From Cytophagales bacterium (lineage in GTDB: Bacteria > Bacteroidota > Bacteroidia > Cytophagales > Cyclobacteriaceae), in NCBI GenBank assembly GCA_022360055.1, contig JAKSDO010000161.1:1-56212 (forward strand): a stretch of DNA of 56,212 nucleotides, given 5' to 3'. The notes under the pieces were generated by a model. The model was not told where the DNA came from. It saw nothing but the letters and a program-made list of their open reading frames with translations, and did not search any database. Made by a program: the position numbers and the translations under genes. Shown here one piece after another: positions 3,888-29,660 of the stretch (position 1 is its first letter; the number at the start of each line of letters is the position of its first letter).

Positions 3888-3898
3888 CAAAACGATGT

Positions 3899-4717
3899 CT
3901 AAACCCCACTGAATGAACTAAAGCCGCCATCTATTGGGATTACCGCCCCGGTCATAAATTTAGAAGCGTCACTGCACAGAAACTGAACAATGCCGTTGAG
4001 TTCCTCCGGCTTCCCGAATCTTCCCATGGGGGTATTGTTCATGATTTTATTGGCTCTGTCCGTGTAATTGCCATGCTCATCAATGAGTATGTCTTTGTTT
4101 TGCTTGCTGATAAAAAAACCTGGTGCTATAGCGTTTACTCGAATACCATCCCCGTATTTAGTAGCCATTTCCATTGCCATCCATTTGGTAAAATTATCGA
4201 TTCCCGCCTTGGCCATGGAATACCCTATTACCCTTGATATGGAATGCGAGGAAGCCATGGAGGAAATATTGATAATGCTACCGTGTCCCTGCTCTGCCAT
4301 TAGTTTTCCCATGGACAATGTGGGAACCACAGTCCCGAATAGATTGAGATCCAAAACATTCAAAATTGCCTCAAGCGAAAGGTCAAAGACCGATTTATCG
4401 GAAGGAATGACCGTACCGGGCACATTACCTCCTGCTGCATTGATCAAGACATCTATGCTCCCCCATTTGTCCAGGACAGACCGTTTCCCGGATTCTATAC
4501 TTTCAGCATCCAGGACATCAATAGGAATCGCCAATGCATTCCTGCCTTTTTTATTCCAGTTTTCAACTTTTTCTTTTACCATCAAACCTGAACGATAGGT
4601 TATGGCAACCTTCATATCGGCCTCAACAAGACTCTTGGCCATTGAACTGCCAAGCACACCGGAACCTCCGGTAATCAGCACAACTTTATTTCTTAAATCA
4701 TCAAATTCGGTATTCAT
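3899..4717 (-). CDS. SDR-family oxidoreductase, possibly D-fructuronate reductase
   Basis: A 272-residue classical short-chain dehydrogenase. The NAD(P) motif TGGSGVLG is at 16-23, NAAG near 94, the catalytic Ser near 152, and the Y-x-x-x-K pair Tyr166/Lys170. The layout, including NVPGTVIPSD after NAAG, resembles SDR-type D-mannonate oxidoreductases (YjmF group), which act in glucuronate/galacturonate breakdown. That assignment is tentative. It is the last gene of the PUL 1 run, 119 bases after the clan GH-A gene, and a uronate enzyme would suit the GH2 protein upstream. Other substrates such as sugars or hydroxy acids cannot be excluded. Confidence 0.75.
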   Translation of the reverse strand: MNTEFDDLRNKVVLITGGSGVLGSSMAKSLVEADMKVAITYRSGLMVKEKVENWNKKGRNALAIPIDVLDAESIESGKRSVLDKWGSIDVLINAAGGNVPGTVIPSDKSVFDLSLEAILNVLDLNLFGTVVPTLSMGKLMAEQGHGSIINISSMASSHSISRVIGYSMAKAGIDNFTKWMAMEMATKYGDGIRVNAIAPGFFISKQNKDILIDEHGNYTDRANKIMNNTPMGRFGKPEELNGIVQFLCSDASKFMTGAVIPIDGGFSSFSGV

Positions 4718-4836
4718 AAACTTTAATTTTGTTGAATTGATATCCTAGTGAATAGATATTCTCCGTCCGGTCGATTGGCATCATACAGTTTTCACTCCGG
4801 TATTGGACATTTGCCGAAGTTCAGGTCTCTCAGCGA

Positions 4837-6405
4837 TCACTTAAACATTATTGCGTCCCTGTCCACAATGCACAACGGATAGTCTAATAATGGTAAATCT
4901 TTGAAATGCATCTGCTTCTCATCTTTGGCAAAAGCGCTAATTTTGTAAGCATTCCCTGAGAGCAGATCAACCAAAACCGGGTCGGTAAAATTTACATTTT
5001 CCACAGCAAGTAAAATATTAGCTGCATGCATAATATTTTCCTGAGCATTCCAAGGCAGCCAATACGCAATGAGATTTTTGTTTTCTTCAGTTTTGAACGA
5101 GGCGACCAACGTAATTGAAGGAAATGCGTCATCTTCCTCGCCAATACCATAAAAATCCCCTTGATTTTCCACGTGTATTTTATGTTCCGCCCGAAATATT
5201 TTATAGGAATTATCCATAATCGCACAAAGGTTCTGATACGCAAAATAGCCTGGCTTGGGAATGAACTCGGGATTGGACAGTAGACACTTTTCATTGACTC
5301 CTTTTGTACGAACCCTCGAACCTCCACGCTCCCGATATCCAAACAAAGTATCGAGCCCTTTCAGCGGAGATCTTTGTTGCCACTCCATTCTTCCCTCTGA
5401 ATGCACCAATTTAAAATAGTTACTCATCGCAGCATTACAAAAAAACACATCTGTAAACGCTTGTCGAAGCAACCATTTGGCCTGAATCTTAAGCCCCCAG
5501 GGAGCTCGTCCTCTAAAATCGCGCGTGCTGCTGTGTGACGGATAGCCGCATTCGCCTTGCCAAAGCTCAATCTTCGGATTGTATTTATCGATAACCTCCC
5601 ACAATTTCACAGCTCTGTATGCCCGCTCTTCCGGTACCGATCCGTAATTATGGTAGGTAATAATATCAATTAAACCTGCAGTTCCCACGCTCAAAAATTC
5701 ATCGGTAAACTCGGGCTGTATACCGGCCGTGGAACCGCCGATCACCTTGGCTTCCGGTTGTATCTTCTTAATTAATTCTGCCGTTTGCTTCAGGAGCCTC
5801 CCATATTCCAGACCATCCGGCGTTGCTCCCCAATAATTCCGGTGATTAGGTTCATTCCATACTTCCCAGTAAGCGATTTTGTTCTTATACCTTTTGATCG
5901 TAAGTTCAACGAACTTAAGCCAGGCTTCCATAGCTGCGGGGTCCTTGACGGGAGGTTCGGGTTTATAACCGTAGATTTCTGCCAGTCTCGGATCATCGTA
6001 AGTCGAAAGCTTTGAATACAGTGTATTGCCATGACCGATGGTCACAAACGGTGTGATACCGGTTTTCAATATGGCATCAAATGCTTTATCGGTCTTGGAC
6101 CAGTCGTATTTGCCCCTTTCTTTCTCGATGTCGTTCCACGAGGCATTCAATCGTGTCCATTTTACTCCGATTTCGGCTGCCCGCTCCAGCAACTGCGGGT
6201 CAAGCGTGCTCGCCTGTATCCCCCAATAAGAAGCTTTTATATCTTTTGAATGCTTTGGTTGCAGTTGTCCGATGTATTCCAGTTTTTCAAATGTCCGGTT
6301 TTCCTGCTGTACATTTCTATTGGTGGAAGTACTGCAATCATTGAATAACAGCAACAGGGTACCGGCGATTCCGGCGGAAAAAAAACGTATTAATCCAAAC
6401 CTCAT
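4837..6405 (-). CDS. Clan GH-A glycoside hydrolase, probable secreted or lipid-anchored
   Basis: A 522-residue TIM-barrel glycosidase. The acid/base Glu185 sits in YWEVWNEPNHRN and the likely nucleophile Glu285 in LWQGECGYPS, the spacing expected of clan GH-A (GH5, GH39, GH79 and relatives). The barrel covers about residues 55-360, and a beta-rich C-terminal domain follows, as in GH39-like enzymes. I cannot fix the family. The N-terminus has a hydrophobic stretch ending LLLLFNDCSTST; the Cys may be lipidated, although the lipobox is poor. It lies in the PUL 1 enzyme block, 132 bases after the beta-helix gene, and probably cuts a glycan exported or captured by this locus. Confidence 0.75.
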   Translation of the reverse strand: MRFGLIRFFSAGIAGTLLLLFNDCSTSTNRNVQQENRTFEKLEYIGQLQPKHSKDIKASYWGIQASTLDPQLLERAAEIGVKWTRLNASWNDIEKERGKYDWSKTDKAFDAILKTGITPFVTIGHGNTLYSKLSTYDDPRLAEIYGYKPEPPVKDPAAMEAWLKFVELTIKRYKNKIAYWEVWNEPNHRNYWGATPDGLEYGRLLKQTAELIKKIQPEAKVIGGSTAGIQPEFTDEFLSVGTAGLIDIITYHNYGSVPEERAYRAVKLWEVIDKYNPKIELWQGECGYPSHSSTRDFRGRAPWGLKIQAKWLLRQAFTDVFFCNAAMSNYFKLVHSEGRMEWQQRSPLKGLDTLFGYRERGGSRVRTKGVNEKCLLSNPEFIPKPGYFAYQNLCAIMDNSYKIFRAEHKIHVENQGDFYGIGEEDDAFPSITLVASFKTEENKNLIAYWLPWNAQENIMHAANILLAVENVNFTDPVLVDLLSGNAYKISAFAKDEKQMHFKDLPLLDYPLCIVDRDAIMFK

Positions 6406-14940: not shown

Positions 14941-17900
14941 TCAGGAAGGGTTATTGCGCAAATAATTTCTGAGGTAATCGGTGGGGGTTTCACCGAAATA
15001 TGCTTTGAAGGCGTTGCGGAAATAGTCTGCTTGCTGAAAACCGACTTCATAACGCACTTCTGATATGTTAAGTTTTCCGGTTTTAAGTAGTTGCGCTGCC
15101 CGCTCGAGTCTGATCGTTCGAATAAATTCCACTGCACTGAAATTTGTAAGCGCTTTGATTTTTCTGTAAAAATGTACCCTGCTCATCCCAACTTCTTTGG
15201 CTACCGTCTCAACTCCAAGGTCAGGATCGGAAATATTTTCATTGATAAAATCGATCGTTTTTTTTATGAATGTTTCATCAACAGATGTGATTGATATTTC
15301 TTCGGGAATCAGCTTCAGGTTTTTGCCCGATTGCTCTTTGAGCATCCTTCTTTGGTCAATCAGTTTTCCGGCTCGTATTTTCAGGAGCTCAGCACTGAAT
15401 GGCTTGGTAATATAATCGTCGGCGCCGGTTTCAAAGCCCTTGATCTGAAATGTGACGGCTGTTCGGGCGGTGAGTAAAATAACAGGAATATGACTGGTTC
15501 TGGGATCGGTCTTTATCCGTTTGCAAAGTTCTATGCCATCGAGTTCCGGCATCATGATATCACTCAAAACCAAATCGGGCATTATTTCCATGGCCAGTTT
15601 AAGTCCCATTTTTCCATCACCTGCCTTTGCTACCATATATTCCGGCTCAAATAGGCCGGAAATAAAATTCCGGACCTCCTCGTTGTCTTCCACCACAAGC
15701 AGCGTTGGTCTTTCGGCATCATCCGGCACCTCAATAACTTGCGACGCCCGTTCCGAATCAAATTTTGCCTCATCGCTTTCAGATTCCAAAAAAACGTGCC
15801 TATACAGGGAGATGTCTTCACTGTTCTTAAAATCTTTTATGACCTGCGAATCACTTAAATGCCTTCTCCCCAAAGGGATGGCTATTGTAAATCTCGTTTT
15901 GCCCGGCTGGTTGTTCCGGGATTCAATGCTCGAAACGGTAATCGTTCCCTGATGCAACTCGACAAACTTCTTGACGACCTCCAGCCCTAAACCCGAGCCG
16001 TAAACTTTTTCGTGGTGCTGCTTACCCGACTGATAGAATCTGTCAAAAACCTTATCAATCTGATCAGCGGGTATACCAATCCCATTGTCCTCAACGGAAA
16101 TCTCCAGGTATCCATCTTCAAAAACTTTATCCTTTTCCAACCCGCTCATGTGTTTTTCAACCGATCTTCGAACACTCAACCCGATAATGCCTCCGGTCGG
16201 TGTGTATTTTACCGCATTGGAAAGCAAATTGTATAGGATTACTTCCATCTTATCCCGATCAAACCATAACAGGATCGACTCATCGCTTACGTCAACTTCC
16301 AACTTGATGTTTTTCTGAAGTGCGGATTCACGAAATGCAAGAGAAACCTCCCTTACAAATTTCACTATGTCTCCCTTACCGGCTTTAAGGCCTAAATGAC
16401 CTTTTTCAAGTTTCCTCAAATCAAGCAATTGATTGATCAATTGAAGCATACGCTCACCATTGCGCTGGATCATATACAATTGATTCTTAAGCTTTGGACG
16501 ACCGATGTATTGCGCAGCCAGATGTTCCAGGGGTGCCAGGATCAGGGTCAGGGGCGTTCTGAGCTCATGCGAAATATCCGTAAAGAATTTTATCCTCAAT
16601 TGATGCTGTTCATTTTCTCTTTCTCTTTCAAAATGCTCCCAGGCGAGGTCACTTTTAAGCTTGCCCCATTTGGAAGCGAAAACGAAAAAAAAGTACAATA
16701 GACCAGTCAATACGATCGCATAGAGCAAATAGGCCCAGAGGGTTCTCCAAAACGGGGGAGTGACTGTAAAATACAATTGATTGTAATTGTTGCCCCAGTT
16801 TGACAAATTGTTGGTAGCTTTTACTTTAAATGTATATGTCCCGGGCTGTAGTTTTGAATAATTCACAACCCGGTAATTCCCGATATTATTCCATTTATTA
16901 TCAATAGGCTCCAGCTTGTATGCATAATTGATTTCTTTTTGCTCCAAATAATTTAAGGCGGCAAACTCGATCGAAAAATCAGATTGCGAATATTTCAGGG
17001 AAATAACGCTATCTTGCCCCAGCGATGCTGTTTTATCTGAATTCAAGTCTAATTGATCCCTCAATTTCACTTCCTTGAAAATTATATCCGGATGATAATT
17101 GATGAGTTGAATGTTTTCCGGATAAAAGGAGTTGAAACCATTTGTCCCTCCAAAAAATAACTGACCGTCAGCAGATTTAAATGCACTATTCGGATAGAAT
17201 TGAAAACCTTGAATGCCATCTGCTTTACCGAAGTTGATCGTCTGATCGACAACAATTGAATCCTGACCGTCGACAGACCAAAGTAATTTTGAAATCCCTT
17301 TATTCGTGCTTACCCAAAGATTTCCGGAATTATCTTCTAAAATTCCATTTATGGTATTGTCGGGCATACCTTCTTTGATGTTAATATTTTTAAGATCGCC
17401 GAATTTGGTATCATAGATATATAATCCCATTCCAAGAGTTCCAATAATTAAATACCTATGGTTTGAAAGGTACAAACAATGGATGGGCAATTCGGAAACC
17501 TTGGAGAATACACCATCCGATTTTAGTCTCGAACGGGAAAATAATCCTTTATCTCCATCGAAATATTCCAATCCGTTTTCAGTCCCCACCCAATATTTAT
17601 TATCGTTGTCTTCCACGATTGCCCAGACATGATTATCTATGGTTTCAACCGGCTCATTTTCGATCCTGAGATACCTTATAAAGGATCTGCTTTCCGGAAC
17701 ATATTTATTTAATCCGCCACCTTGTGTGCCTATCCAAATGCGATTATTCGAATCCTTAAATATTACCTGAATATGATTATAGCCGATGGACGATTCGTCC
17801 ACCGGATCATGAATAAAATATTGAACATCCTTTGTGGAAAGATTGAGGACGCTCAATCCGATCAAACCACCAACCCACAAATTATTGCGATCGTCCAGCA

Positions 17901-19149
17901 GTAAGGTTTTTATTGTATTTTCCAGTAATCCGGCTTGTCCGTCTTCTTTCAGTATATGTGTAAACGACTTTGCGGACTGATCAAAGTAATTCAAACCATT
18001 TTCTGTTCCAATCCACATATTTCCGGTTTTATCTTGAGCAAACGATGAAACAAGATTATCACTTAGTCCATTTTCCTTTGTAACTTCCTCTTTATAATGG
18101 CTAAACTTATTTATTGAAGGGTGTGTATAACTTAAACCACCATTGAATGTAGCGATCCAGATCCCTCCGTCCCGGTCCTTATAAATATCTCTTATGGAAT
18201 TCTGGCTTAAGGAGTTGTCGTCAAATTTATTTGATTTGTACGTAGATATTTCTCCGGTAAGTGTATTGAATATACTTAGACCGTCAAATGTGCCTATCCA
18301 AACTCTTTCTTCGGAAAACTGCTTAATGACCCTTACCCTGTTTCCCGCCAATTCATTGTTTCTTTCACCATTTCTGGAATAGCTTTTTACAAGATTTAAA
18401 TGGGGATCAAACTTTAGAACACCTTTTTCCAAAGATTCGGTTGCAAACCAATAGTTTCCTTCCATATCGATCAGAAGGTCTCTGAAAGGTGTTCCTGATC
18501 CCAATATCGGATTTGCGTTCAATTGAGCAGCTTTCGAAACAACGCCGCCGTTGTATATGTATAATCCTTCGGTTGTGCAAAGCCACAGGATCCCATTTAG
18601 ATCTTCAACAACTTTGTAAATACTCATATCGGTCACCTGATGGGGCATACCGGATATAATATTATGCTTAATGAATGTGAACTTTAAAGGATCGAAATGA
18701 TAAAGTCCTGAAGAAGTTCCCAGCCATAATTTACCCGATTTGTCCTGTATTATACTGCGAATAAAAACATCTTGTTGTTGCCCATTTGAATCTGTGAGCG
18801 GGAATCTTCTAAATCTGTCCTCTTCACTGAGGTATAGGTTGAGCCCCTTTGACGTACCAATCCATAGCTGCCCATTATCGCTTACAAACAGGTCAACTAT
18901 TTTACTACTGGTCAAAGAAAGTGAATCCCTGTTGCTTTGTCTATAAATCGTTATGTCATATCCATCGTATTTATTGAGCCCATCATTAGTGCCAAACCAC
19001 ATAAATCCCTTATTATCCTGAACAACGCTCCAGACCGTATTGTTAGAAAGCCCATTTTCAATATTGATGTGACGAAAATTAATTTTTTCGTTTTGGGACA
19101 TTAGGCCACCAATTCTAAATAGGAATACGAATAGAAAATAGTACTTCAT
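14941..19149 (-). CDS. Hybrid two-component system (HTCS) sensor kinase/response regulator of PUL 1
   Basis: A 1402-residue one-piece regulator. Order: signal peptide (MKYYFLFVFLFRIGG), a periplasmic double beta-propeller of Reg_prop repeats (many VVQDNKGFMWFGTNDGLN-like turns, about 20-690), a Y_Y_Y domain (about 730-795), one membrane helix near 810, HisKA with phospho-His861 in DISHELRTPL, HATPase (NAVKYTP, GSGLGL), a receiver domain with Asp1197 in VLSDIMMPELDG, and a C-terminal AraC-type helix-turn-helix. Proteins of this kind bind a specific oligosaccharide in the periplasm and activate the adjoining susCD operon. I prefer ATG at 19149 over 19170 because it begins the signal peptide. 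Confidence 0.95.
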   Translation of the reverse strand: MKYYFLFVFLFRIGGLMSQNEKINFRHINIENGLSNNTVWSVVQDNKGFMWFGTNDGLNKYDGYDITIYRQSNRDSLSLTSSKIVDLFVSDNGQLWIGTSKGLNLYLSEEDRFRRFPLTDSNGQQQDVFIRSIIQDKSGKLWLGTSSGLYHFDPLKFTFIKHNIISGMPHQVTDMSIYKVVEDLNGILWLCTTEGLYIYNGGVVSKAAQLNANPILGSGTPFRDLLIDMEGNYWFATESLEKGVLKFDPHLNLVKSYSRNGERNNELAGNRVRVIKQFSEERVWIGTFDGLSIFNTLTGEISTYKSNKFDDNSLSQNSIRDIYKDRDGGIWIATFNGGLSYTHPSINKFSHYKEEVTKENGLSDNLVSSFAQDKTGNMWIGTENGLNYFDQSAKSFTHILKEDGQAGLLENTIKTLLLDDRNNLWVGGLIGLSVLNLSTKDVQYFIHDPVDESSIGYNHIQVIFKDSNNRIWIGTQGGGLNKYVPESRSFIRYLRIENEPVETIDNHVWAIVEDNDNKYWVGTENGLEYFDGDKGLFSRSRLKSDGVFSKVSELPIHCLYLSNHRYLIIGTLGMGLYIYDTKFGDLKNINIKEGMPDNTINGILEDNSGNLWVSTNKGISKLLWSVDGQDSIVVDQTINFGKADGIQGFQFYPNSAFKSADGQLFFGGTNGFNSFYPENIQLINYHPDIIFKEVKLRDQLDLNSDKTASLGQDSVISLKYSQSDFSIEFAALNYLEQKEINYAYKLEPIDNKWNNIGNYRVVNYSKLQPGTYTFKVKATNNLSNWGNNYNQLYFTVTPPFWRTLWAYLLYAIVLTGLLYFFFVFASKWGKLKSDLAWEHFERERENEQHQLRIKFFTDISHELRTPLTLILAPLEHLAAQYIGRPKLKNQLYMIQRNGERMLQLINQLLDLRKLEKGHLGLKAGKGDIVKFVREVSLAFRESALQKNIKLEVDVSDESILLWFDRDKMEVILYNLLSNAVKYTPTGGIIGLSVRRSVEKHMSGLEKDKVFEDGYLEISVEDNGIGIPADQIDKVFDRFYQSGKQHHEKVYGSGLGLEVVKKFVELHQGTITVSSIESRNNQPGKTRFTIAIPLGRRHLSDSQVIKDFKNSEDISLYRHVFLESESDEAKFDSERASQVIEVPDDAERPTLLVVEDNEEVRNFISGLFEPEYMVAKAGDGKMGLKLAMEIMPDLVLSDIMMPELDGIELCKRIKTDPRTSHIPVILLTARTAVTFQIKGFETGADDYITKPFSAELLKIRAGKLIDQRRMLKEQSGKNLKLIPEEISITSVDETFIKKTIDFINENISDPDLGVETVAKEVGMSRVHFYRKIKALTNFSAVEFIRTIRLERAAQLLKTGKLNISEVRYEVGFQQADYFRNAFKAYFGETPTDYLRNYLRNNPS

Positions 19150-19246
19150 TTTACGAGGTATTATTGGCACAATAAGGATCTACGGCGGAAGTAAAACGAA
19201 TGTTAAGTAAAATTAAAAACGATGTTTTTGTCATTAGTACGTTTAG

Positions 19247-19697: not shown

Positions 19698-20102
19698 CTA
19701 AACCTTTGTTTCAGTCTGCGTTTTCAACCAGTTTTCTGCTGCTTCGTATTCATAAAATTTATGAACAACCTCCGTATTTGGCATCGCTTTGCTGGCGGAT
19801 AATTCCGCAAACACGTTATCCGGAAATATCCAGGCAAACTTTTTCAAGCCCGCTTTTATCATTGCGGGAAACCAATAGGATTGAGTCCATTCCGAAGCTT
19901 TATTCCAGGGACCCTGAACTTCACGGTTGTCGTTGATCACATTAGAGCAATCAAGCTTTTTAAAAATCTCCAGTATATCTTCGCCCGCTTCATATATCCC
20001 CTCTTCGGTTTGAAAGCCTACCCAGTTCAGGTAAAGATAATTCTGTTGCTTGTCGTGCTCAACAATAACGTTTTTCTTTTTTAATAAAACTGTTTTACTC
20101 AT
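19698..20102 (-). CDS. STAS/SpoIIAA-like small protein downstream of the PKS
   Basis: A 134-residue protein that looks like the STAS/SEC14-type SpoIIAA-like family: an N-terminal beta hairpin (LLKKKNVIVEHDKQQNYLYL), a central helix, a strand-turn region around VINDNREVQGPW, then KAGLKKFAWIFP and a final amphipathic helix. Members may bind lipids or acyl ligands, but no function is proven for this type. ATG at 20102 (MSKTVLLKKK) is chosen; a longer frame to 20126 adds a weak N-terminus. It lies 31 bases after the lipocalin-like gene and is the last gene before the terminator, so it belongs to the polyketide operon. Confidence 0.6.
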   Translation of the reverse strand: MSKTVLLKKKNVIVEHDKQQNYLYLNWVGFQTEEGIYEAGEDILEIFKKLDCSNVINDNREVQGPWNKASEWTQSYWFPAMIKAGLKKFAWIFPDNVFAELSASKAMPNTEVVHKFYEYEAAENWLKTQTETKV

Positions 20103-20133
20103 ACTATATGATTTTAAATTGAACAATAATTAA

Positions 20134-20589
20134 TCAGTTCATGATTTTTTTCCATGTAATCTTAAATACAACATTGCCGGTAGAGGTTGGAGTAGGAGGT
20201 GTGGAAAGCATGAGAACATCCTCTTGAAGCTCAGCGATCCTGGTTTCTTTATGCTTTAGCCAATTCGGAAAAAGTGTCCCTTCTACGGAATGTACAAAAA
20301 CTCCGGGCTCTGCTTCCTCATACCTGCCATAGTAGGATAAGTAAGTTTTAAATGCCTCTGCCATTTCTTCTTTCGTTCCTGCATCGATCCCCTGACTAGC
20401 AAAGTCTTGCCTTTCTTCCCGTGCAATTTGAACACTCATATATCCGGAATCGTGATAAATCAAGATTCCTTTCGGCTGCTGCCCGAAAAACTTTACTTCT
20501 TCGCCGGATTCGTTTATGAAAACCCAACTTACCAGCTTCCACGCTCCCAATATGCGTTTGCCTATTTTTTCATTTGTCACACTGCTCAT
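20134..20589 (-). CDS. Lipocalin-like domain protein downstream of the PKS
   Basis: A 151-residue protein matching the bacterial lipocalin-like family (PF13924): ILGAWKLVSW near the start, then the GILIYHDSGYMSVQI and GRYEEAEPGVFVHSVEGTLFPNW segments typical of that group. These are small beta-barrels found beside polyketide and other biosynthetic genes; in several fungal and bacterial clusters a lipocalin-like protein acts as a cyclase or ligand binder. Here it starts one base after the PKS stop, so it is translated from the same message. No signal peptide, so it should be cytoplasmic. A product-binding or tailoring role is inferred. Confidence 0.75.
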   Translation of the reverse strand: MSSVTNEKIGKRILGAWKLVSWVFINESGEEVKFFGQQPKGILIYHDSGYMSVQIAREERQDFASQGIDAGTKEEMAEAFKTYLSYYGRYEEAEPGVFVHSVEGTLFPNWLKHKETRIAELQEDVLMLSTPPTPTSTGNVVFKITWKKIMN

Positions 20590-20590: not shown

Positions 20591-23500
20591 TTAATATTTT
20601 ATTTCATATCCAATAATTTTCTTAAACCGGTCATTTATTAGTTGACTCACAAAAGCTACATCTTCCATGATGTACCTGTGCCCTCCCGGACGTTCGATGG
20701 ATTCGTGCGATTGGATTGTCTCTTTATGCCATTGGCTCACTTGTTCCAAACTGACACCCGGATCATCTTTGCCCCGAAGAGATATTATCGGCAGATCAAA
20801 CGGTTCCGAAGGGTTATACCGATAGCTATCGAGCAACATCAAATCATTCCGCATGATCTCGATAAAGGTCTGTCTCAGTTTTTCGTCGGTAATATTTTCG
20901 GGACTCAGATGTGGAAATTGTTGTATCAACTTTTCCTCGCTCATCTCGCTGCTCAACCGTGATCGATCGTAACTGAACAGGGCAGGGGTCGATGAAGTAA
21001 ACAATACAACGGGTAACTGATTGTTTTGATCTCTCAGTTTTCTCATGACTTCAAATGCAATTGCACCGCCCATGGAATGCCCCAAAAAGGCAAATGGGGT
21101 GCCATCATTGTATTTATTGATTTCGGCTGCCAGCGTATTTGTAAGTTGAGTCATATCCGTTATGGGCGTTTCACCTGATCTGGTACCTCTGCCGGGTAAT
21201 TCCACGGCCCTTAGCTCAATATCCGGCAGTAAACCTTCCCACGGATCAAATAGGGCACTGCTACTTCCCGCATCATGAAAACAGTATATATGAAACTTTG
21301 GCGCCTCTTTGGCATGAGTTACCCACCAGGGAGATTTATGTTCCATATCCTCAATTATGTTCTCAGTAATCAACTTATAAGCGAAATTGCTAAACTGGGC
21401 TATGGACGGATATTTCCAAAAATTACCAACTGCCAGTTTCAGGTTCAGAACTCTTTCCAGTTGATTGCGTAACTGGATGGCCATGAGCGAATCTATCCCC
21501 AATCCTTTAAAGGTCGTATTGTCCGTTATGATGCCCTCCGATGCCTTGGTAATTCCGGAGACTCTTCTGACAATCACGTCGCGTATTATACGCACCGCTT
21601 CTTCTTCGCTTTTATCCCTCAGGTCGATGCGATCACTATCCGGGTTATCGGAAATCGACGTAGACAACAATTTGCTCAAATACATTGTTTCAGACAATGC
21701 ATTATAATATTCGGCCGTTTTTTCAATATCGATGCGACCAATACCTATCTGGACGGGTTTCTTGTGAAAGATTTTGGCGAATACTTCGACTCCTTCGTGC
21801 ATCGGGAATGGAATAAAACCTTCTGCCTCGGCATATTTTTGCAGCTTTTTTTCATTGGCCACCATACCGACATCCTCAATTACTCCCCAGTTGATCGCCA
21901 CGGCCGGTAAATCCAATTTATTTCTGAAATGCGCAAAGTAATCGATAAATGTATTCGCAGCTACATAGCTTCCCTGTCCGCTCAGGCCCAATAGTGAAGA
22001 TTCCGAAGAAAATAAAATGAAATGCTCCAGCGGAAGATCAAGACTCAAACGATGCAGATTCCAGGTGCCGGCCATTTTCGGAGCCAATATTTTAAGGAAC
22101 TCTTCCGTACTCAGATCGGCAATCTTGTTCGCCTGTATTAATCCCGCCGCATGTATGATGCCTTTGACCGGAGGCATATCGTGCCTGATCTTGCCAAACA
22201 CATGCTGTAATTGATCGTAGTCTGCCACGTCGGCACAATACAAATGAATGTCGATACCATCTCTTTTGAATTGCTCAATAATACCCTCAACATGTTCGGA
22301 CATTTTACCGCTCCGGCTTATCAGGGCGATATGTTTTACTCCTTTTTTAATTATCCACTCCACCAAAGGAAATGCCGCGCCCCCAAATCCGGTAACAACC
22401 GTGGTACTTTGATCATCCAGTTTGTCATTTTCCAAACTTAGAACCGGCAGGCTTTCATTCACCAGCCTTGAAACATAGGTTTTATCTTCTCTGATCGCTA
22501 TTTCTACCTCCGCACCTTTATACTTAAAGATCAAATCGAATAAAAGAGCTACTTCAGGCTCATCCGGGAAATAGCTAATGTCTATCCTCCGGCAATTATA
22601 GGCCGGTTGCTCATTAGATAAAACTTTCGCCAAACCCCAAACCGGAGCTTGCGATATATTGACGTGAGGACTCTTATTGCTCACAGGTTGCAGGCCGTTT
22701 GTAAGCACAATCAAGTTAGGTTTCTTTAGCGGATAGCATTGATTTAATGCTTTATGGATATTCATAAGCAATATACTTCCGCTCTGCTGCAAGAGATCCA
22801 AATCATTTGAGCAAAGATTCTCATAATGAATGTGATCATTCAGGGATGCCGCATGAATTACACCGTCGATAAAAACATTATTATTGATAAAGTTATCGAA
22901 CAATAATTTCAGACTGTTGGGTTCATTGAAATTTACCAGGTACTGATCATCATCTATTTTTAAATATTCATCACTAAGACCTACCCGGATGAGATTGTGA
23001 CCGTGGTTATGAAATGATCTCCGAATGCTTTTTTCTACGCCAAGGTGATCTTCAAAAATTACCCATGTCTGTAAAGTTGATTCTTTTTCGGATGGTTGGA
23101 TATCAACTTTTTCCCACTTTGTGGTGTACAACCAATCGGTCCTGGTATTTTGTGATAATACTTTATTGTCGATTATTATTGCTTCCAGCAATTCAAGATC
23201 TGCCAATAAATTACCATTTTCATCATAGATTGTAATCGCCACCTGTTGTTTTACAATGCCGCTTTCTTCGGCCATCGACTTTTTAAATTCAGCCTTAACC
23301 AGGATATCATCGTCTTTTTCAGGCTTGTGATACCACCTAAATCCCTTTAGCTGAGATAAAAACGTCGTATACCTGTTCTTCTCATCAAGTGTATCTTGTA
23401 TCGGAGTAAATATGGTTTGAAAACAGCTATCCAAAATTGCCGGATGAATAAAATACTTATGATCATAACCGGAAATCAACGAGTCCGGCACAATGTGGGC

Positions 23501-26500
23501 AATAGCTTGCTTTTTGTTTATTCTTATCCAGTCAATACACTGAAACAAATTTCCATATTGCACCCCAATCGCATCCGTAACCTTATAAAACTGATCCTTT
23601 TTTATAAAGACATCTTTTGCCGAATGCCTGAGATGGTAGAGATAGTCATTTGCCACTTCTTCCCTGCTGCCACAGATTTTGAGCTCGCCGTATGCGCTGA
23701 CCGTCCATTCGGATTCTTCAACACCCGAAACCTTTGTATGATAGCTGAAGGTAGCGCTGTATTGTCCGGTTCGAGTTATTTTTAACTGCGCATCAACAAC
23801 TTCATTTTCTTGCAGATAAACCGGCACTTTGAAGTATAGACTTTCTATCTGATGAGAAGCGTTACCAAATGCTTCCTCAAGCGCAGCGTAAAGTATCTCT
23901 ACATAGCTGACCCCTGGCAGGACACTGGCATTGTTTACCTTGTGATCCTTAATAAAAGAAAGATGCTCCAGGCTCAACTTGTTTTCCCAGATAAATGTAT
24001 CGTTCATCCCGGCAAGCATCATACGATGACCCAGCAATGGATTTTTTCCGTTTGTTTTTACCACCCCTCTTTGCTCTGAACGATCTTCTATTTTGTATGG
24101 CAGTCGTTGCATCGGGTAACCTGGAAGACCTATATTCGGAGCTTTTGAAACCTTAAAAAAAGCTCTCCAATTGATGTTGTGCCCCCTTTCAAAAAGACCA
24201 CCTGCATTGTTTAAAAAAGATAATTTTTCAGGCTTTTCCCGAAACAATGTCGGGATGGCCGCTACGGTTCGACCCTTTGCTTCCGCACATTCATTAATCG
24301 CATGGGTTAATACCGGATGTGGGCTCATTTCAATAAAAATGGAATGACTGCCTTCCAAAAGCTTTTCAACGGTAGAGGAAAATTCAACCACGTTCCTAAG
24401 GTTGCTTACCCAGTAATCCTCATTTAGTTCACCGCCGGGAACAAGGGCTTTACGGACCGTAGAGTAAAAAGGCACATGATTTTCGCACAGGCTCAATCCT
24501 TTTAGTTTTTCCTTAAGCGGTTCCTTCAAGCCATCCATATGAGGCGAATGCGAAGCCACATCCACTTTTATTTGGCGGCAAAAAATATCTTTATCTTCCA
24601 GTACCTGGAGCAACTTCAACAATTCGCACTCATCCCCCGCAATTACGGTTGATTTGGGACTATTGCATACGGCGACAGACAGCGCACCGTTATAGGCTGC
24701 CAGCATCCCGTCGGCTTGCTCATACGTGAGCTCTGTGACAGCCATGGCCCCTCCGATGCTGCTCACCGTCTTCATGAGTTTCGACCGGCTAAAAATTATC
24801 TTTGCAGCATCGTCCAGGGAGATTGCCCCGGAAATGCAGGCCGATGCCACCTCTCCCATGCTGTGCCCTACGACGGCATCCGGCAAAATTCCTTTGTCCA
24901 TCCAAAGCTTGGCCAAAGCGATTTCAACAGCTAAAAGTAAAGGCTGAACAACATCAATTTCATCCAGTCTGCTCATGTGTTCATTCGCAAACAGTTGCTC
25001 TTTCAAAGACCAATCGGCAAAAGGCGCGAAAGCTTCCTCGCAATCGTCGATTGCCACCCTAAACGCAGGCTCGGAATGGTAAAGTTCCACCCCCATACCC
25101 AACCACTGACTCCCCTGGCCCGGAAATACAAAAACTATTTTTTCATCTCCGTTCAACTTGGCAGGCATTATATGACTTTCGTCTTCAATATAATCCTTTA
25201 GCTTCTCGATTATTTCCTCCGCATTGCTTCCCGATACGCTTAATCTGTAATCCAATTGAGGTTTATTTATGGCGGTCGCCAGGCATAGATCGGCAGTTTC
25301 CGACGGTGCGTTAATTTGGGTTGACAATTTCTCCCTGTACCTGCTCGCATAATCTTTTAATGCCTGCTCATTTTTTGCGGATAAGTTCAACAAAAACGGG
25401 CCTTCCTTTTTATGATTTGTCTCCGGATGATCATGCTTTCGTATGTACTCTTCGAGTACGGTGTGCGCATTCGTACCCCCCCATCCAAAAGAATTTATGC
25501 CTGCTTTACGCGTTTCTCCATTGGAAATTTTCCACTCCCTAAGTGTATCATTTACAGTTATCTTGAGCTCATCAAAAGGAATTTTTGGATTTGGCCTGTT
25601 GAAATGCAAGCTTGCGGGGATCTTTCGGTTCTGAATGGACAATAATACTTTCAGAAGCCCTGCCATGCCAGCCGCTCCTTCCAGATGCCCGATATTTGTT
25701 TTGACCGACCCGATTCTCAATGTGCGGTCGTCCGGCCTGTCCTTGGAGAAGAATTTTCCCAAAGCTATGGTTTCGGTAGGGTCTCCCAGTTTTGTGCCAG
25801 TGCCATGAGATTCGATATACTGTATTTCAGAAGGCAATATTCCCGAATCCCTGTAAGCTTCTTCGAGCATACTGATTTGACCTTTTATACTGGTTGCCGG
25901 TAAATTGACGTTATAGCCATTGTTATTCATGCCGGTGCCCCTTACGACGGCAATAATTTCATCGCCATCCGTCTCCGCGTCCGACAATGCTTTAAGGATA
26001 ACCACACCGGCTCCCTCACCCCGAACGAAACCATCAGCCTCGTCGCTAAACGTGCTGCACCTCCCTCTTTTGGAAAGACCCCCGAATTTTGATAATAGCA
26101 CGTATTGATCGTGATCAAGGATATGATTGATCCCACCTACCACCGACATATCCGCGCCTCCATCCCAGATGCTCTGGCACGCCAGTTGCAATGCGACAAG
26201 CGAAGAAGAGCAACCCGTATCAACTACCAGGCTGGGGCCCGAAAACCCAAACGTGTAAGATATACGATTCGCAATAATATTAGCCGATTGCCCCACTGCC
26301 GAATGCGAAGTTGCATTGGCATTGAGGTGCTTTCGGAAATGCTCAAAATCACTCCATATATTTCCAATGAATACACCGACCTTCTTGCCGGCCACACGAT
26401 CAAATGCCAGGCTGCTCTCTTCTATTGCCTCCCAGGTAAGCTCCAGCATGAGCTTTTGAGAGGGCGACATTTCAATGGCTTCGGCCGGAGATATGTTGAA

Positions 26501-26728
26501 AAGAAAAGGATCAAAATCGTATATATTTTTCAAAAAGGATCCATGACACTGATATGATTTATTTGGAGTATCCGGGTTTGGATCAAAAAAAGAACTTAAA
26601 TCCCACCGATCATCCGGCATCTTGGTAACCGAACTCTTGCCTTTCGCTAGCAATTTCCAAAATTCCGTTAAGTTTTGAGCCTCTGGAAACCTGCCAGACA
26701 TACCGACTATTGCAATTGGTTGCTTCAT
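20591..26728 (-). CDS. Single-module type I polyketide synthase, KS-AT-DH-KR-ACP-TE
   Basis: A 2045-residue synthase that begins directly with the ketosynthase, with no loading domain. KS (1-430): Cys173 in DTGCSSS, then ESHGTGT and NIGHLEG. AT (535-830): Ser623 in GHSMGE and a VASHS specificity motif near 725. DH (895-1180): His929 in DHKVNNASVLP and Asp1100 in HPAILDSCFQ. No enoylreductase. KR (structural part about 1220-1430, catalytic part 1440-1680): Tyr1588 and the Ser and Lys are present, but the cofactor loop reads TGFGGAAF, short and missing a glycine. ACP: Ser1747 in GIDSLMA. TE (1790-2040): Ser1885 in GHSMGG, Asp1988/1989 and His2017, most like RifR/SrfAD type II thioesterases. One module with its own release domain suggests iterative use. 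The product is unknown. Confidence 0.95.
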   Translation of the reverse strand: MKQPIAIVGMSGRFPEAQNLTEFWKLLAKGKSSVTKMPDDRWDLSSFFDPNPDTPNKSYQCHGSFLKNIYDFDPFLFNISPAEAIEMSPSQKLMLELTWEAIEESSLAFDRVAGKKVGVFIGNIWSDFEHFRKHLNANATSHSAVGQSANIIANRISYTFGFSGPSLVVDTGCSSSLVALQLACQSIWDGGADMSVVGGINHILDHDQYVLLSKFGGLSKRGRCSTFSDEADGFVRGEGAGVVILKALSDAETDGDEIIAVVRGTGMNNNGYNVNLPATSIKGQISMLEEAYRDSGILPSEIQYIESHGTGTKLGDPTETIALGKFFSKDRPDDRTLRIGSVKTNIGHLEGAAGMAGLLKVLLSIQNRKIPASLHFNRPNPKIPFDELKITVNDTLREWKISNGETRKAGINSFGWGGTNAHTVLEEYIRKHDHPETNHKKEGPFLLNLSAKNEQALKDYASRYREKLSTQINAPSETADLCLATAINKPQLDYRLSVSGSNAEEIIEKLKDYIEDESHIMPAKLNGDEKIVFVFPGQGSQWLGMGVELYHSEPAFRVAIDDCEEAFAPFADWSLKEQLFANEHMSRLDEIDVVQPLLLAVEIALAKLWMDKGILPDAVVGHSMGEVASACISGAISLDDAAKIIFSRSKLMKTVSSIGGAMAVTELTYEQADGMLAAYNGALSVAVCNSPKSTVIAGDECELLKLLQVLEDKDIFCRQIKVDVASHSPHMDGLKEPLKEKLKGLSLCENHVPFYSTVRKALVPGGELNEDYWVSNLRNVVEFSSTVEKLLEGSHSIFIEMSPHPVLTHAINECAEAKGRTVAAIPTLFREKPEKLSFLNNAGGLFERGHNINWRAFFKVSKAPNIGLPGYPMQRLPYKIEDRSEQRGVVKTNGKNPLLGHRMMLAGMNDTFIWENKLSLEHLSFIKDHKVNNASVLPGVSYVEILYAALEEAFGNASHQIESLYFKVPVYLQENEVVDAQLKITRTGQYSATFSYHTKVSGVEESEWTVSAYGELKICGSREEVANDYLYHLRHSAKDVFIKKDQFYKVTDAIGVQYGNLFQCIDWIRINKKQAIAHIVPDSLISGYDHKYFIHPAILDSCFQTIFTPIQDTLDEKNRYTTFLSQLKGFRWYHKPEKDDDILVKAEFKKSMAEESGIVKQQVAITIYDENGNLLADLELLEAIIIDNKVLSQNTRTDWLYTTKWEKVDIQPSEKESTLQTWVIFEDHLGVEKSIRRSFHNHGHNLIRVGLSDEYLKIDDDQYLVNFNEPNSLKLLFDNFINNNVFIDGVIHAASLNDHIHYENLCSNDLDLLQQSGSILLMNIHKALNQCYPLKKPNLIVLTNGLQPVSNKSPHVNISQAPVWGLAKVLSNEQPAYNCRRIDISYFPDEPEVALLFDLIFKYKGAEVEIAIREDKTYVSRLVNESLPVLSLENDKLDDQSTTVVTGFGGAAFPLVEWIIKKGVKHIALISRSGKMSEHVEGIIEQFKRDGIDIHLYCADVADYDQLQHVFGKIRHDMPPVKGIIHAAGLIQANKIADLSTEEFLKILAPKMAGTWNLHRLSLDLPLEHFILFSSESSLLGLSGQGSYVAANTFIDYFAHFRNKLDLPAVAINWGVIEDVGMVANEKKLQKYAEAEGFIPFPMHEGVEVFAKIFHKKPVQIGIGRIDIEKTAEYYNALSETMYLSKLLSTSISDNPDSDRIDLRDKSEEEAVRIIRDVIVRRVSGITKASEGIITDNTTFKGLGIDSLMAIQLRNQLERVLNLKLAVGNFWKYPSIAQFSNFAYKLITENIIEDMEHKSPWWVTHAKEAPKFHIYCFHDAGSSSALFDPWEGLLPDIELRAVELPGRGTRSGETPITDMTQLTNTLAAEINKYNDGTPFAFLGHSMGGAIAFEVMRKLRDQNNQLPVVLFTSSTPALFSYDRSRLSSEMSEEKLIQQFPHLSPENITDEKLRQTFIEIMRNDLMLLDSYRYNPSEPFDLPIISLRGKDDPGVSLEQVSQWHKETIQSHESIERPGGHRYIMEDVAFVSQLINDRFKKIIGYEIKY

Positions 26729-27327
26729 TTTATATGATATTTAAGAACAGAACACGTATTTAAATCAAGACTCTACCACCGATACTATCGCATAGTATTT
26801 GTAAAAATCTTAGACAGAACCTAAAAAATTATTAAAAGGCGCAATGTTAACCTCAGCGAACAGATCAAGAAAAAAAATCATCGTCATCCTAAAAAATCAT
26901 TGCCAAAGTGATATTGTTGCAACAATATAAAACCAAATAGAGTTCTATGAAAGAAAAAAAATTAAAAAAAAATTATATCTCAAGATGATATTAATATACG
27001 GAAAATATTAGCTTCTTCCTTTGAATGCGCCAATGGTTTTGAACCGATACGGATAGAATCGCACAACAAATTCGTAATTTGCTGATCACTAACTTTTTGA
27101 TGAAAAAACAACGGATCATGATCGCATGCTCTACTTATGGTATAAATCGTACCGAAATCCTTGGAAGGATAATTTCTTTGAATTTATTCGATTTTCCAAA
27201 TAAGTTCGAATCGATTGATCAACCCGATGGCTGATGGTCGATAATAATTGGAGCAAAGGATATTACTTTTTTATTTCTGTGAAGTATTTGCACTAGAATC
27301 CATCACCCCTTCAATTTTATACTTTTT
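26729..27327. promoter_or_regulatory. Divergent promoter region between PKS and phosphopantetheinyl transferase
   Basis: 599 bases with no gene, much richer in A and T than its flanks, including runs such as AAAAAAATTAAAAAAAAATT near 26956. It must hold the start sites for both divergent genes. It contains the 18-bp palindrome listed separately and a near direct repeat CCTAAAAAAT(T/C)ATT at about 26820 and 26888. No exact TAnnTTTG promoter could be pinned with confidence. Confidence 0.6.
26911..26928. promoter_or_regulatory. Perfect 18-bp palindrome, candidate operator of the PKS/PPTase pair
   Basis: ATATTGTTGCAACAATAT is a perfect 9+9 palindrome, 183 bases from the PKS start and 400 from the PPTase start. 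Uninterrupted symmetry of this length in a divergent promoter is typical of sites for dimeric helix-turn-helix repressors. No candidate repressor gene is adjacent except the ArsR protein at 28.5 kb, which has its own different operator. Confidence 0.5.
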
Positions 27328-28032
27328 ATGATACATGTTGCGGTTATTAATATAAATTCCGAGAAAGGAATCTTTGAAAAATATAATGCTTCATCGTTTT
27401 TATCGGAACCGGATTATAAAACCTATAATTCTTTATTAAAACCTTCCGACCGGCAATTGATGCTGGCATCACGCATCCTATTGGATGAAATGGCGAAATA
27501 CATCTTCGGCCGCTGTTCTATTAAAACACTTCATAAGAATTCTTTGGGGAAACCCATTCTAGATGGTATAAAGAGTGTCGGAATTTCGCACAGCGGCGAA
27601 ATCGCAGCAGTTGCAATGAGCAATGTGAGCGATATAGGAATTGACGTTCAGCATATCAAACATGTTCCTTTGCGGGATATTCAAAGTGTATTTAGCAGGC
27701 TGGAACAACAAAAATTTGAAGAATTACCGCAAGATGCCCGTCCGGGATGGTTCCATGCCCAATGGAGTAAAAAAGAGGCCATATTAAAAGCCGAAGGCAT
27801 TGGGCTTTCCATCGATCCAAAGCGAATCTATGCGGACCAAACAAGGGGTCATATCGAAAAAGGAGGCAGGTCATGGTACTTCAAAGATTGCCCCGATATT
27901 GAAAATTACTCGCTACAATTGTGCGGAGACAAGCCCTCCGAAGATGTTGAATGGTACATGTTAAAGAATAATGAACTAACCCGGTTAGTTCATCTCAAAG
28001 GACGATACGGGCAAAATGCCCGTGCCGGCTAA
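27328..28032 (+). CDS. 4'-phosphopantetheinyl transferase, Sfp superfamily
   Basis: A 234-residue enzyme that moves phosphopantetheine from CoA to the serine of carrier proteins. The Mg/CoA motif GIDVQ (Asp106) and the second motif W-S-K-K-E-A (Trp146 to Ala151, with Glu150) are intact, as is the N-terminal LGKP motif near 73 and SHSG near 87. It is divergent from the PKS across one shared upstream region, so it most likely activates the PKS carrier domain at Ser1747. The gene end contains two small inverted repeats (ACGGGCA/TGCCCGT at 28007-28023 overlaps the last codons). Confidence 0.92.
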   Translation: MIHVAVININSEKGIFEKYNASSFLSEPDYKTYNSLLKPSDRQLMLASRILLDEMAKYIFGRCSIKTLHKNSLGKPILDGIKSVGISHSGEIAAVAMSNVSDIGIDVQHIKHVPLRDIQSVFSRLEQQKFEELPQDARPGWFHAQWSKKEAILKAEGIGLSIDPKRIYADQTRGHIEKGGRSWYFKDCPDIENYSLQLCGDKPSEDVEWYMLKNNELTRLVHLKGRYGQNARAG

Positions 28033-28081: not shown

Positions 28082-28537
28082 TCAATTCAGTTTTTTGGGC
28101 ACCTTTATATTTTCATCCAGTATGCGGAGCATGTGCACCCAGGTCTTTGTCCTTCTGTCCATGTCCGAAGGGATGGTGTCAAAATACTGGGTAAGAGAAA
28201 GGAAAGATTCGCGTTCGGCAATCTGTTCCAGCCTGATCTTTACCGTGCTTTTTGGCGGGGCGGATGGAAGACCTCCATATTCAAAGCTGAATGTCAGGAG
28301 CTCAGGAGCCCGGATCTCGAGGTACTCTCCTCGAATGAAGAAACTGGCGGTCCTCGCACTTTTGAGTTCGATGGAGTATTGTCCGCCGACCTGCACATCC
28401 GTTTGCACCCTTCCCACGGTCAGGTGTTCCGGGCCGAACCACTTCACGATCAGATCGGGCTTAACCAACCAATCGAACAGTTCCGAGACCGAACAGTTGA
28501 ACTTTCGGCGGACATATACCCTATTTGTTGCTTTCAT
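28082..28537 (-). CDS. SRPBCC/AHSA1-family protein
   Basis: A 151-residue helix-grip protein. KWFGPEHLTVG and the VGGQYSIEL strand followed by the EAxxPERL-like segment (RAPELLTFSFEY) are typical of the AHSA1-like SRPBCC group, which forms a deep ligand pocket. ATG at 28537 (MKATNRV) is preferred; a GTG lies at 28543. The start overlaps the ArsR gene's 3' end by 17 bases, so the two are translated from one message. ArsR plus AHSA1-like pairs are common and the ligand is usually unknown. It is convergent with the PPTase, 49 bases apart. Confidence 0.8.
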   Translation of the reverse strand: MKATNRVYVRRKFNCSVSELFDWLVKPDLIVKWFGPEHLTVGRVQTDVQVGGQYSIELKSARTASFFIRGEYLEIRAPELLTFSFEYGGLPSAPPKSTVKIRLEQIAERESFLSLTQYFDTIPSDMDRRTKTWVHMLRILDENIKVPKKLN

Positions 28538-28865
28538 CAGCACGGTCGATCAGGTTTTCCAGTTTATCAAAGGACTGATGCCAGAAGTTCGAATAATAGG
28601 AGATCCATTCAAGCGATTGCTTCAAGGATGCTCTGTTCAGGGACAACACGCGATATTTGCCCTGCTTTCGCTTGGTGAGTACCCGGGCATCTTCCAGAAT
28701 ACGGATATGCTTGCTCAGCGCCTGAAATGAAATGGAAAAAGAACCGGTGAGCTCCAGCAAGGTCGAGTCCCTTTCATGAAGCAGCTCAATTATTCTTCTT
28801 CTATTCCCATCGGCCAGTGCGCTGAAAACCTTGTCCCGGTCGATCCTGCCGGCAGCGGTACCCAT
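28521..28865 (-). CDS. ArsR-family winged-helix repressor
   Basis: A 114-residue regulator with the winged helix-turn-helix core: ALADGNRRRIIELL, then the recognition region SISFQALSKHIRILEDARVL and the wing KRKQGKYRVLSL. There is no cysteine metal site, so it is the non-metal branch found with SRPBCC proteins. The C-terminal extension (YYSNFWHQSFDKLENLI) is the usual dimer-side helix of this group. It probably represses its own four-gene operon through the inverted repeat at 29641-29660. Confidence 0.9.
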   Translation of the reverse strand: MGTAAGRIDRDKVFSALADGNRRRIIELLHERDSTLLELTGSFSISFQALSKHIRILEDARVLTKRKQGKYRVLSLNRASLKQSLEWISYYSNFWHQSFDKLENLIDRADESNK

Positions 28866-28868
28866 AGC

Positions 28869-29174
28869 TTACAGTGTAAATCCCGCCGCCACCGGATTGA
28901 GCTGCGTAGATACGGGAGGCTCCAACGGACCGCTGGCCTTTAGCGCCATTCTGAAATCGTTGACCTCCTGAACTTTGCTTAACGCACTCAGTGTTTGTTC
29001 GTCTCGGGCAATATTGATATGAACAAAAGTTTGCCCGTCATCGAGGGTATAGGAGGAATATAACATTCCGTCTATCGGATCGACCTTTAGCCTGTCCATG
29101 ACCTTTTGAATATTCGCCTTGTTTTGCTCGGCATATTCCGGCCTTACTTTGTACTTTACTTTTACCGCTTTCAT
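28869..29174 (-). CDS. Small dimeric alpha/beta-barrel (ABM-like) protein
   Basis: A 101-residue protein that fits the ferredoxin-like dimeric alpha/beta-barrel superfamily: VKVKYKVRPEYAEQNKANIQ, then a strand-rich middle (MLYSSYTLDDGQTFVHINIA) and a second helix (ALSKVQEVNDFRMALKAS). Antibiotic-biosynthesis-monooxygenase-like proteins have this shape, but no catalytic residue is defined for the group, so the function is open. The stop is three bases before the ArsR start and it follows the SnoaL-like gene by 10 bases, within one operon. Confidence 0.55.
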   Translation of the reverse strand: MKAVKVKYKVRPEYAEQNKANIQKVMDRLKVDPIDGMLYSSYTLDDGQTFVHINIARDEQTLSALSKVQEVNDFRMALKASGPLEPPVSTQLNPVAAGFTL

Positions 29175-29184
29175 TATTCCCGTT

Positions 29185-29598
29185 TTATTCCATAAATTTC
29201 ATCAGCATATCTTTATGACATGGCAATCCAAACGAATTCCAGTACTCATACATTTTTCCGTCCTTCATTCTGAAAATATGTATGTCTTTATGACGGTAGG
29301 CCCTGCCGTTCTTTGTGCCTTCACCCACATCCATCATCGCTACCATATCCCCTTTGGCAAAAAGGTGGATCGGGGTTACCTTAAAGCCTTCCATTGTGGA
29401 GAAAGCTGCACTGATCGTTTTTACGATTTCGTAAAATCCAGCTTTATCCTGAAGCCCTTCCCGGCCATGATGGTTCTTAAAATCATCATGGATCAGATCG
29501 TCGAGGATGTCGGTATGGCCGACGTTGAAATTACTTACCAGACTTAATATGGTATCCATATTGCGCTGCTCCTGCTCGGTTACATTTTCCATGTTCAT
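29185..29598 (-). CDS. SnoaL-like / ester cyclase family protein (NTF2 fold)
   Basis: A 137-residue cone-shaped NTF2-fold protein. The pattern LIHDDFKNHHGREGLQDKAGFYEIVKTI, then FKVTPIHLFAKGDMVAMMDVGEGTKNG and KDIHIFRMKDGKMYEYWNSF, is characteristic of the SnoaL-like polyketide cyclase/ester cyclase group. Many such proteins are not polyketide enzymes. ATG at 29598 (MNMENV) is preferred; 29592 is also possible and 29646 would overlap the operator. It is the first gene of the ArsR operon. Confidence 0.8.
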   Translation of the reverse strand: MNMENVTEQEQRNMDTILSLVSNFNVGHTDILDDLIHDDFKNHHGREGLQDKAGFYEIVKTISAAFSTMEGFKVTPIHLFAKGDMVAMMDVGEGTKNGRAYRHKDIHIFRMKDGKMYEYWNSFGLPCHKDMLMKFME

Positions 29599-29640
29599 TC
29601 TTTTAGAAGGTAAGTTCAAAGATAGCAAAAATACTTTAAC

Positions 29641-29660
29641 ATTCAACTAAATGGTTGAAT
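29641..29660. promoter_or_regulatory. ArsR-type operator
   Basis: ATTCAAC-TAAATG-GTTGAAT is a perfect 7-bp inverted repeat with a six-base centre, 42 bases upstream of the first gene of the ArsR operon. Its form is like sites of ArsR proteins that partner SRPBCC genes. It is the natural site for autoregulation. Confidence 0.65.

Follow-up and report, generated by a model that had tools for sequence, protein, structure and literature searches.

A single-module type I polyketide synthase with lipocalin and STAS-fold partner genes forms a recurrent cassette in Cytophagales-type bacteria

Among characterised polyketide synthases (PKSs), the design closest by description to the system considered here is CA_C3355, the clostrienoic acid/clostrienose PKS of Clostridium acetobutylicum, which the accessible parts of its report present as a single-module type I enzyme of the order ketosynthase-acyltransferase-dehydratase-ketoreductase-acyl carrier protein (KS-AT-DH-KR-ACP), encoded by a stand-alone gene and able to iterate in vitro (PMC5686105). 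The system in question is a gene cassette carried by a stretch of 56,212 nucleotides from a Cytophagales bacterium (Cyclobacteriaceae; GenBank assembly GCA_022360055.1, contig JAKSDO010000161.1, positions 1 to 56,212), hereafter the window, and comprises a single-module type I PKS, genes for a lipocalin and a STAS-fold protein behind it, and a divergent gene for a phosphopantetheinyl transferase (PPTase). Mycocerosic acid synthase and Pks2 are PKSs for methyl-branched fatty acids, and the cassette PKS is highly similar to them over KS-AT-DH and KR and, judged by motifs and scores, may have a similar type of AT; however, compared with the KS-AT-DH-ER-KR-ACP order of mycocerosic acid synthase-like enzymes it lacks an enoylreductase (ER) and carries a fused thioesterase (TE) instead, and it reaches only 870 against the cut-off of 2400 of the Pks2 model (NF041183). 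With CA_C3355 it shares the placement of KS-AT-DH-KR-ACP on one polypeptide without a loading module, whereas CA_C3355 is an orphan gene near regulators and efflux pumps, for which the available portions of its report mention no lipocalin or STAS partner (PMC5686105).

Within the same bacterial family, the KS group next to that of the cassette belongs to PKSs of about 2,420 amino acids (aa) (L181 5088-12341, L182 5616-12911 and L183 6121-13413). The L181 enzyme is by Pfam a KS-AT-DH-ER-KR-ACP-TE protein, with the KS motif DTACSSS and the AT motif GHSIGE, and thus differs from the cassette PKS in having an ER; a PPTase gene lies next to the PKS in L181 and L182, the two neighbourhoods that were checked, while the cassette lipocalin was not detected (match at 1e-6) in the genomes of this group (G018, G022, G031). 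In the open literature on Cytophagales and Bacteroidota, on single-module or iterative PKSs and on lipocalins with PKSs, as far as its accessible text goes, no characterised equivalent of the cassette was recognised, in agreement with the sequence-only reading, which had matched the locus to no known cluster. According to the available part of one report, Fulvivirga kasyanovii has one type I PKS biosynthetic gene cluster without a close characterised homologue (PMC12565237), and available text of another gives cluster numbers for Fulvivirga without gene detail (PMC10113389); this genus carries the cassette in four named loci (L078, L080, L081, L088), and the F. kasyanovii cluster may or may not be the same.

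The observation of the cassette itself is confirmed. Open reading frame (ORF) analysis and Pfam bear out a synthase of the proposed length and domain content, with neither a loading domain nor an ER (Table 1). All Pfam assignments given here lie above their cut-offs: ketoacyl-synt at residues 3-251 with its C-terminal part at 260-376, Acyl_transf_1 at 532-841, PKS_DH_N at 897-998 with PS-DH at 1044-1188, KR at 1443-1618, PP-binding at 1718-1782 and Thioesterase at 1813-2031. With its KS starting at residue 3, the protein leaves no room for a loading or docking segment, and among the 18 Pfam families reported none is a PKS-type ER domain. The best NCBIfam match is the type I PKS model NF045894, with 1200 bits (below its cut-off of 1740), and the polyunsaturated fatty acid synthase PfaA was ruled out as an identity (TIGR02813, 432 against a cut-off of 1010 bits).

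Table 1. Features of the cassette in the window, with catalytic residues numbered along the PKS
Feature	Coordinates	Strand	Evidence
Type I PKS, single module, 2,045 aa, KS-AT-DH-pseudo-KR-KR-ACP-TE	20591..26728	-	ORF and Pfam
KS, catalytic C173 H308 H348, motif DTGCSSS	25601..26722	-	Pfam
AT, S623, motifs EIDVVQP, GHSMGE, VASH	24206..25135	-	Pfam
DH, H929 and D1100 present	23165..24040	-	Pfam
Structural pseudo-KR/KR prefix region	22565..23137	-	PF21394 just below cut-off; NF047870 PKS_KR_start above cut-off
KR, K1551 S1574 Y1588 N1592 present	21875..22402	-	Pfam; aligned to mycocerosic acid synthase KR
ACP, S1747	21383..21577	-	Pfam
C-terminal TE, type II-like, S1885 D1989 H2017	20636..21292	-	Pfam
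Lipocalin_5 protein, 151 aa, 1 bp past the PKS stop	20134..20589	-	Pfam
STAS/SpoIIAA-fold protein, 142 aa, motif NDNxxVxGPW, 7 bp past the lipocalin	19698..20126	-	Alignment, model, fold search
Divergent PKS/PPTase intergenic region, 599 bp, presumed promoters	26729..27327	.	Coordinates
Sfp-type 4'-phosphopantetheinyl transferase, 234 aa	27328..28032	+	PF01648 (ACPS), E 4e-12

The arrangement around the PKS agrees largely with what had been proposed. The two tail genes follow it at operon-like spacing, and the PPTase gene does face it head to head; on the other hand, the interval 20591-28032 first assigned to the locus omits the tail genes at 19698-20589. The genome encodes two ACPS-family matches, of which the cassette PPTase is one.

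These genes recur together in other genomes. A lipocalin match at 1e-6 occurs in 3 of 59 genomes, the window genome included (with G025 and G019), and each time lies directly after the best PKS match. A profile of cassette lipocalins matched at 1e-10 in 39 of 295 genomes of the family, again with its own genome counted; 31 of these score 5e-48 or better, after which there is a gap to 6e-36, and in all 31 (29 loci, the window and G019) the PKS C-terminus adjoins a cassette-type lipocalin. This linkage is to be read with caution, given that the profile was built from cassette lipocalins themselves and that the count excludes 15 lower-scoring lipocalin matches (E 6e-36 to 3e-11), which are the only ones in eight genomes. 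Outside the family, lipocalin relatives at 1e-8 were found in 14 other genomes of 395 in the phylum, with no PKS match within the 1.5-kb flanks of any of the 14 (one flank being cut by a contig end). Of the 29 family loci, 24 have the STAS gene within 1.5 kb, three (L154, L155 and L158, = L058, L059, L054) carry it on the far side of the PKS, past the PPTase, and the other two stop at a contig edge (L146, L157). When named genomes were scanned with the STAS alignment, 56 loci were obtained, and PKS, lipocalin and STAS occur together in 20 of them, in genera that include Mangrovivirga, Marinigracilibium, Fulvivirga, Chryseolinea, Chryseotalea, Chryseosolibacter, Parachryseolinea and Dawidia, as well as in one Leptospiraceae metagenome-assembled genome (MAG) with a different gene order. 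In 36 of the 56 the locus DNA holds no PKS stretch of at least 100 aa and no cassette lipocalin, so the STAS gene alone is no marker of the cassette; such loci include Pedobacter and Hymenobacter, plus the close L075, L077 and L087 (47-49% identity). Among 21 clustered PKS loci, 12 (window included) have a PPTase homologue in the vicinity of the PKS. Some named loci and family genomes are probably identical assemblies (e.g. L076 and L039, whose contigs agree in length and in gene positions), so that these counts are not independent, and called ORFs were given M as first residue throughout, fragments at locus ends included. Because the set recurs in many genomes, a chance arrangement is ruled out, and the possibility that the tail genes are accidental neighbours is rejected from the lipocalin side by the 31/31 linkage. 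Other Bacteroidota thus keep the tail genes with the PKS, and the PPTase as well in about half of the loci.

Some members of this collection deserve separate mention. The STAS-fold gene is tandem-duplicated after the lipocalin in L073 (9965-11021) and in L074 (9965-10935), in Mangrovivirga and Marinigracilibium. Among the PKS matches compared by identity, the closest, L041 in genome G009 (4-5912; 62% over residues 2-627 and 49% over 624-1963), also has a PPTase homologue beside it and is broken by several in-frame stops, reflecting decay or assembly errors. In the Leptospiraceae MAG (L102, 6292-13553) a lipocalin and a STAS gene accompany a type I PKS with, by eye, an ACP-like start before the KS, and transfer or mis-binning is possible for this cassette.

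For a survey of catalytic residues, 26 Bacteroidota cassette PKSs were aligned, the window included, while L102 (KS of a different type, contig end), L172 (entered with a neighbouring kinase ORF in place of its PKS), L041 (broken frames), L097 (contig end) and the family genomes covered by 1.5-kb flanks only were left out. In the KS tree (52 rows, 51 of them different) a long branch leads to a single clade (100/100) made up of the 26 cassette KSs; their grouping with the Leptospiraceae KS is weakly supported (85/42), and the next group is that of the roughly 2,420-aa single-module PKSs (fork 97/92, with the root drawn at midpoint). The KS Cys, His and His with the Gly before the Cys, the AT motif VASH and the other checked AT residues, the ACP Ser and the TE triad S1885-D1989-H2017 are present in 26 of 26 rows, which are related, so that residue counts are not independent. 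On the other hand, 19 rows, the window among them, have every residue of both the DH (His, Asp) and the KR (Lys, Ser, Tyr, Asn), and the other seven lack residues in both domains; no row is deficient in just one. This joint retention or loss suggests that both work together where they are kept. The seven incomplete rows fall in two separate clades of the KS tree: in L088/L089 the DH and KR domains are present without their catalytic residues, whereas in L091/L173-L176 the pseudo-KR and KR are gone, the DH Asp is lost and in three rows its His as well, which leaves KR-less PKSs of 1,559-1,587 aa (L091 and L172-L176; L172 by its length, 1,571 aa), a non-reducing variant that occurs in nature. 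Identity of the KR to that of the window falls from a mean of 0.49 in 18 intact rows to 0.25 in the two dead-KR rows, while the KS, AT and TE stay nearly as similar. Twice, apparently in separate events, KR and DH have been lost together. The proposed lone reducing module with built-in release and no ER is supported, although the design is less isolated than the sequence-only reading had it, since the group also holds the KR-less cassettes and, with a PPTase next to it, at least one single-module PKS that has an ER and ends in a TE.

The same data bear on whether the window PKS is a piece of a larger assembly line with modules elsewhere. The cassette KS is the sole KS match on the contig of the window and no second PKS family recurs near the cassettes, while the genome has five KS matches, namely the cassette, those on contigs C187 and C16, and two more whose frames measure 417 and 419 aa. 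Contig C187 (L184, 4.5 kb) carries a partial type I KS that belongs to a second type I PKS with an open frame of 1,495 aa, and contig C16 (L185) a KS in a 452-aa frame near the contig end. This second type I KS fragment on so short a contig, in an assembly of 300 contigs, is what speaks for a dispersed assembly line. However, the protein begins with its KS and is closed by its TE, all 26 aligned members share the stand-alone design, 19 of them with both DH and KR complete, and the cassette KS clade is separate from the C187 KS; with the design recurring and the cassette KSs in one clade, a modular fragment was rejected and is considered very improbable.

What the module makes depends first on the AT. 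Seven solved sequences match it at 1e-68 (DEBS, Lsd14 and similar), and in alignments with four solved ATs of the DEBS and Lsd14 type its EIDVVQ pairs with their RVDVVQ and its VASH with their YASH. Scores are highest against the DEBS/Lsd14-type ATs (235-247 bits), followed by mycocerosic acid synthase (206-224), PpsA (176) and CurL (146), against 90 bits for malonyl-CoA:ACP transacylase. The DEBS and Lsd14 ATs are methylmalonyl-specific. A methylmalonyl-CoA mutase family pair is encoded in the genome. In the accessible text of an AT engineering study, VASH and YASH figure as alternatives to HAFH (PMC8058987). The extender would thus be a branched unit, most likely methylmalonyl-CoA. If the AT used malonyl-CoA instead, a straight unsaturated acid, polyene or pyrone would result, a signal-like or, as had been proposed earlier, pigment-like product, and CA_C3355 offers a precedent, as it uses malonyl-CoA, yields a lactone and pyrones in vitro and leads to clostrienoic acid in vivo, according to the available text of its report (PMC5686105). 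However, the AT motifs and the order of scores favour branched extenders and VASH is invariant in the 26 aligned cassette members, which makes the malonyl alternative improbable.

Release points in a similar direction. The TE has 14 matches at 1e-5, of which 12, with chain lengths of 242-292 aa, bear the names RifR, YbtT, TesA or thioesterase, the other two being a DEBS-RifR fusion and a non-ribosomal peptide synthetase chain; its best solved relatives include RifR, YbtT, SrfAD and TesA. Its sequence affinity is thus to type II thioesterases, although it is fused to the PKS, unlike the stand-alone RifR, and since the solved structures nearest to it, RifR among them, are of thioesterases that stand apart from a synthase, it would more probably hydrolyse the chain than form a macrocycle. 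Because the AT motifs are of the methylmalonyl type and the TE resembles stand-alone enzymes, a methyl-branched free acid is suggested, and the pigment guessed earlier becomes less likely.

On these grounds, the cassette would encode an autonomous, probably iterative PKS that releases a methyl-branched, unsaturated free acid, a reading to which we give an even chance. In this scheme the PPTase, judged by its family, would arm the ACP, and a starter acyl group from primary metabolism would go straight onto the KS, because the PKS has no loading domain. The AT would bring in the branched extender, probably methylmalonyl-CoA, the KS would condense, the KR reduce and the DH dehydrate, giving an alpha-methyl, alpha,beta-unsaturated acyl-ACP that would stay unsaturated because there is no ER. 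The module would probably cycle a few times, iteration being plausible by analogy with CA_C3355, before the type II-like TE hydrolyses the chain to the free acid. The lipocalin, probably cytoplasmic, may bind, protect or fold the hydrophobic product, and the STAS-fold protein may dock on the ACP or the synthase as a partner or regulator. The DH/KR-deficient side branches, working with the same partners, should leave the beta-keto group of their product unreduced.

The number of cycles separates this scheme from a single elongation, in which one cellular acyl-CoA and one methylmalonyl unit would give an alpha-methyl-2-enoic acid for lipid tailoring. One module without a loading domain and with a hydrolytic-type TE in cis would fit such a role, and a partner of lipocalin type would be apt if the product were a lipid. 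On the other hand, CA_C3355, with the same domain order, iterates according to the accessible part of its report (PMC5686105), and no conserved acyl-activating partner is apparent, because no other gene family (counted as sequence clusters without assigned identity) occurs in more than five of 34 clustered loci. A single elongation is therefore held to be rather unlikely, although a little less so than the use of malonyl-CoA.

Several points count against the iterative, methyl-branched scheme. Its closest analogue lacks a TE, is predicted to be malonyl-specific and depends on enzymes from other loci to reach its final product, according to the available text (PMC5686105), and for these reasons the analogy is partial. 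In the accessible text of the AT study, VASH in place of HASH increased the share of methylmalonyl-derived product from 36% to 43% while YASH cut it to 25%, and the motif by itself is insufficient to fix AT specificity (PMC8058987). The KR may be weak, because its glycine loop in the window, TGFGGAAF, looks one residue short and has its last Gly replaced by Ala, and reduction is evidently dispensable to the cassette in seven members. Finally, adjacency of the PPTase is not universal, and in five of the 29 family loci the STAS gene is on the opposite strand, with just 36-38% identity.

Of the two small partners, the lipocalin is a Lipocalin_5 protein (PF13924, E 2e-31, 109 bits against a cut-off of 25), and its model (pLDDT 91.9) has as top folds mostly ligand-binding lipocalins, the matches being weak (TM about 0.5, best E 1.4e-3). 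In the accessible literature nothing was found that ties lipocalin-like Diels-Alderases to the cassette lipocalin, and nothing relevant on Lipocalin_5 in the PKS literature. The STAS-like protein has no Pfam or NCBIfam match at 1e-3; its model (pLDDT 90.9) is closest to RsbS and SpoIIAA, again weakly (TM about 0.6, best Foldseek E 1.4e-3), in a list that is also mixed with integrase cores at lower TM (about 0.35). Members of the STAS/SpoIIAA anti-anti-sigma family have a phosphorylatable Ser/Thr at the start of helix 2, and in the alignment the region that would correspond here reads VxGPW, with no invariant Ser/Thr. No obvious signal peptide was seen by eye in either protein. Binding of ACP by the STAS domain of YchM, the subject of a study cited in PMC11214054, is a lead rather than support. 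A bolder proposal, tentative and on balance improbable, is a PKS complex of a kind not described before, in which the STAS-fold protein would be indispensable as a subunit that docks on the ACP or the synthase and the lipocalin would receive or reshape the chain, so that one module and two small partners replace an assembly line, while parallel KR and DH loss switches the product between an unsaturated and a beta-keto methyl-branched acid with the partners unchanged.

The cassette is a small and portable biosynthetic unit of about 8.3 kb, spread across many Cytophagales-type genera, to which the literature searched assigns no product. Because a single gene would make the chain, product discovery by deletion or expression should be simple. 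The coupled KR and DH losses provide a natural series on how a module shifts its reduction state while its TE and partners are retained, and the recurring STAS-fold and lipocalin genes raise a testable question on PKS accessory proteins.

Of the genes that surround the cassette in the window, those beside the PPTase at 28082-29646 (an ArsR-type repressor, AHSA1 and SnoaL-like genes, and one for a small protein that Pfam does not match) look unrelated, and these ArsR/AHSA1/SnoaL genes showed no recurrence with the cassette across the clustered loci. On the other side, at 14941-19170, lies a hybrid two-component regulator, recognised by eye. Hybrid two-component genes are abundant in such genomes, so that this one is not proposed as a conserved regulator of the cassette, although homologues of it (34-37% identity) are found upstream of the PKS in L172, L174 (212-4324), L175 (1-4071) and L176.

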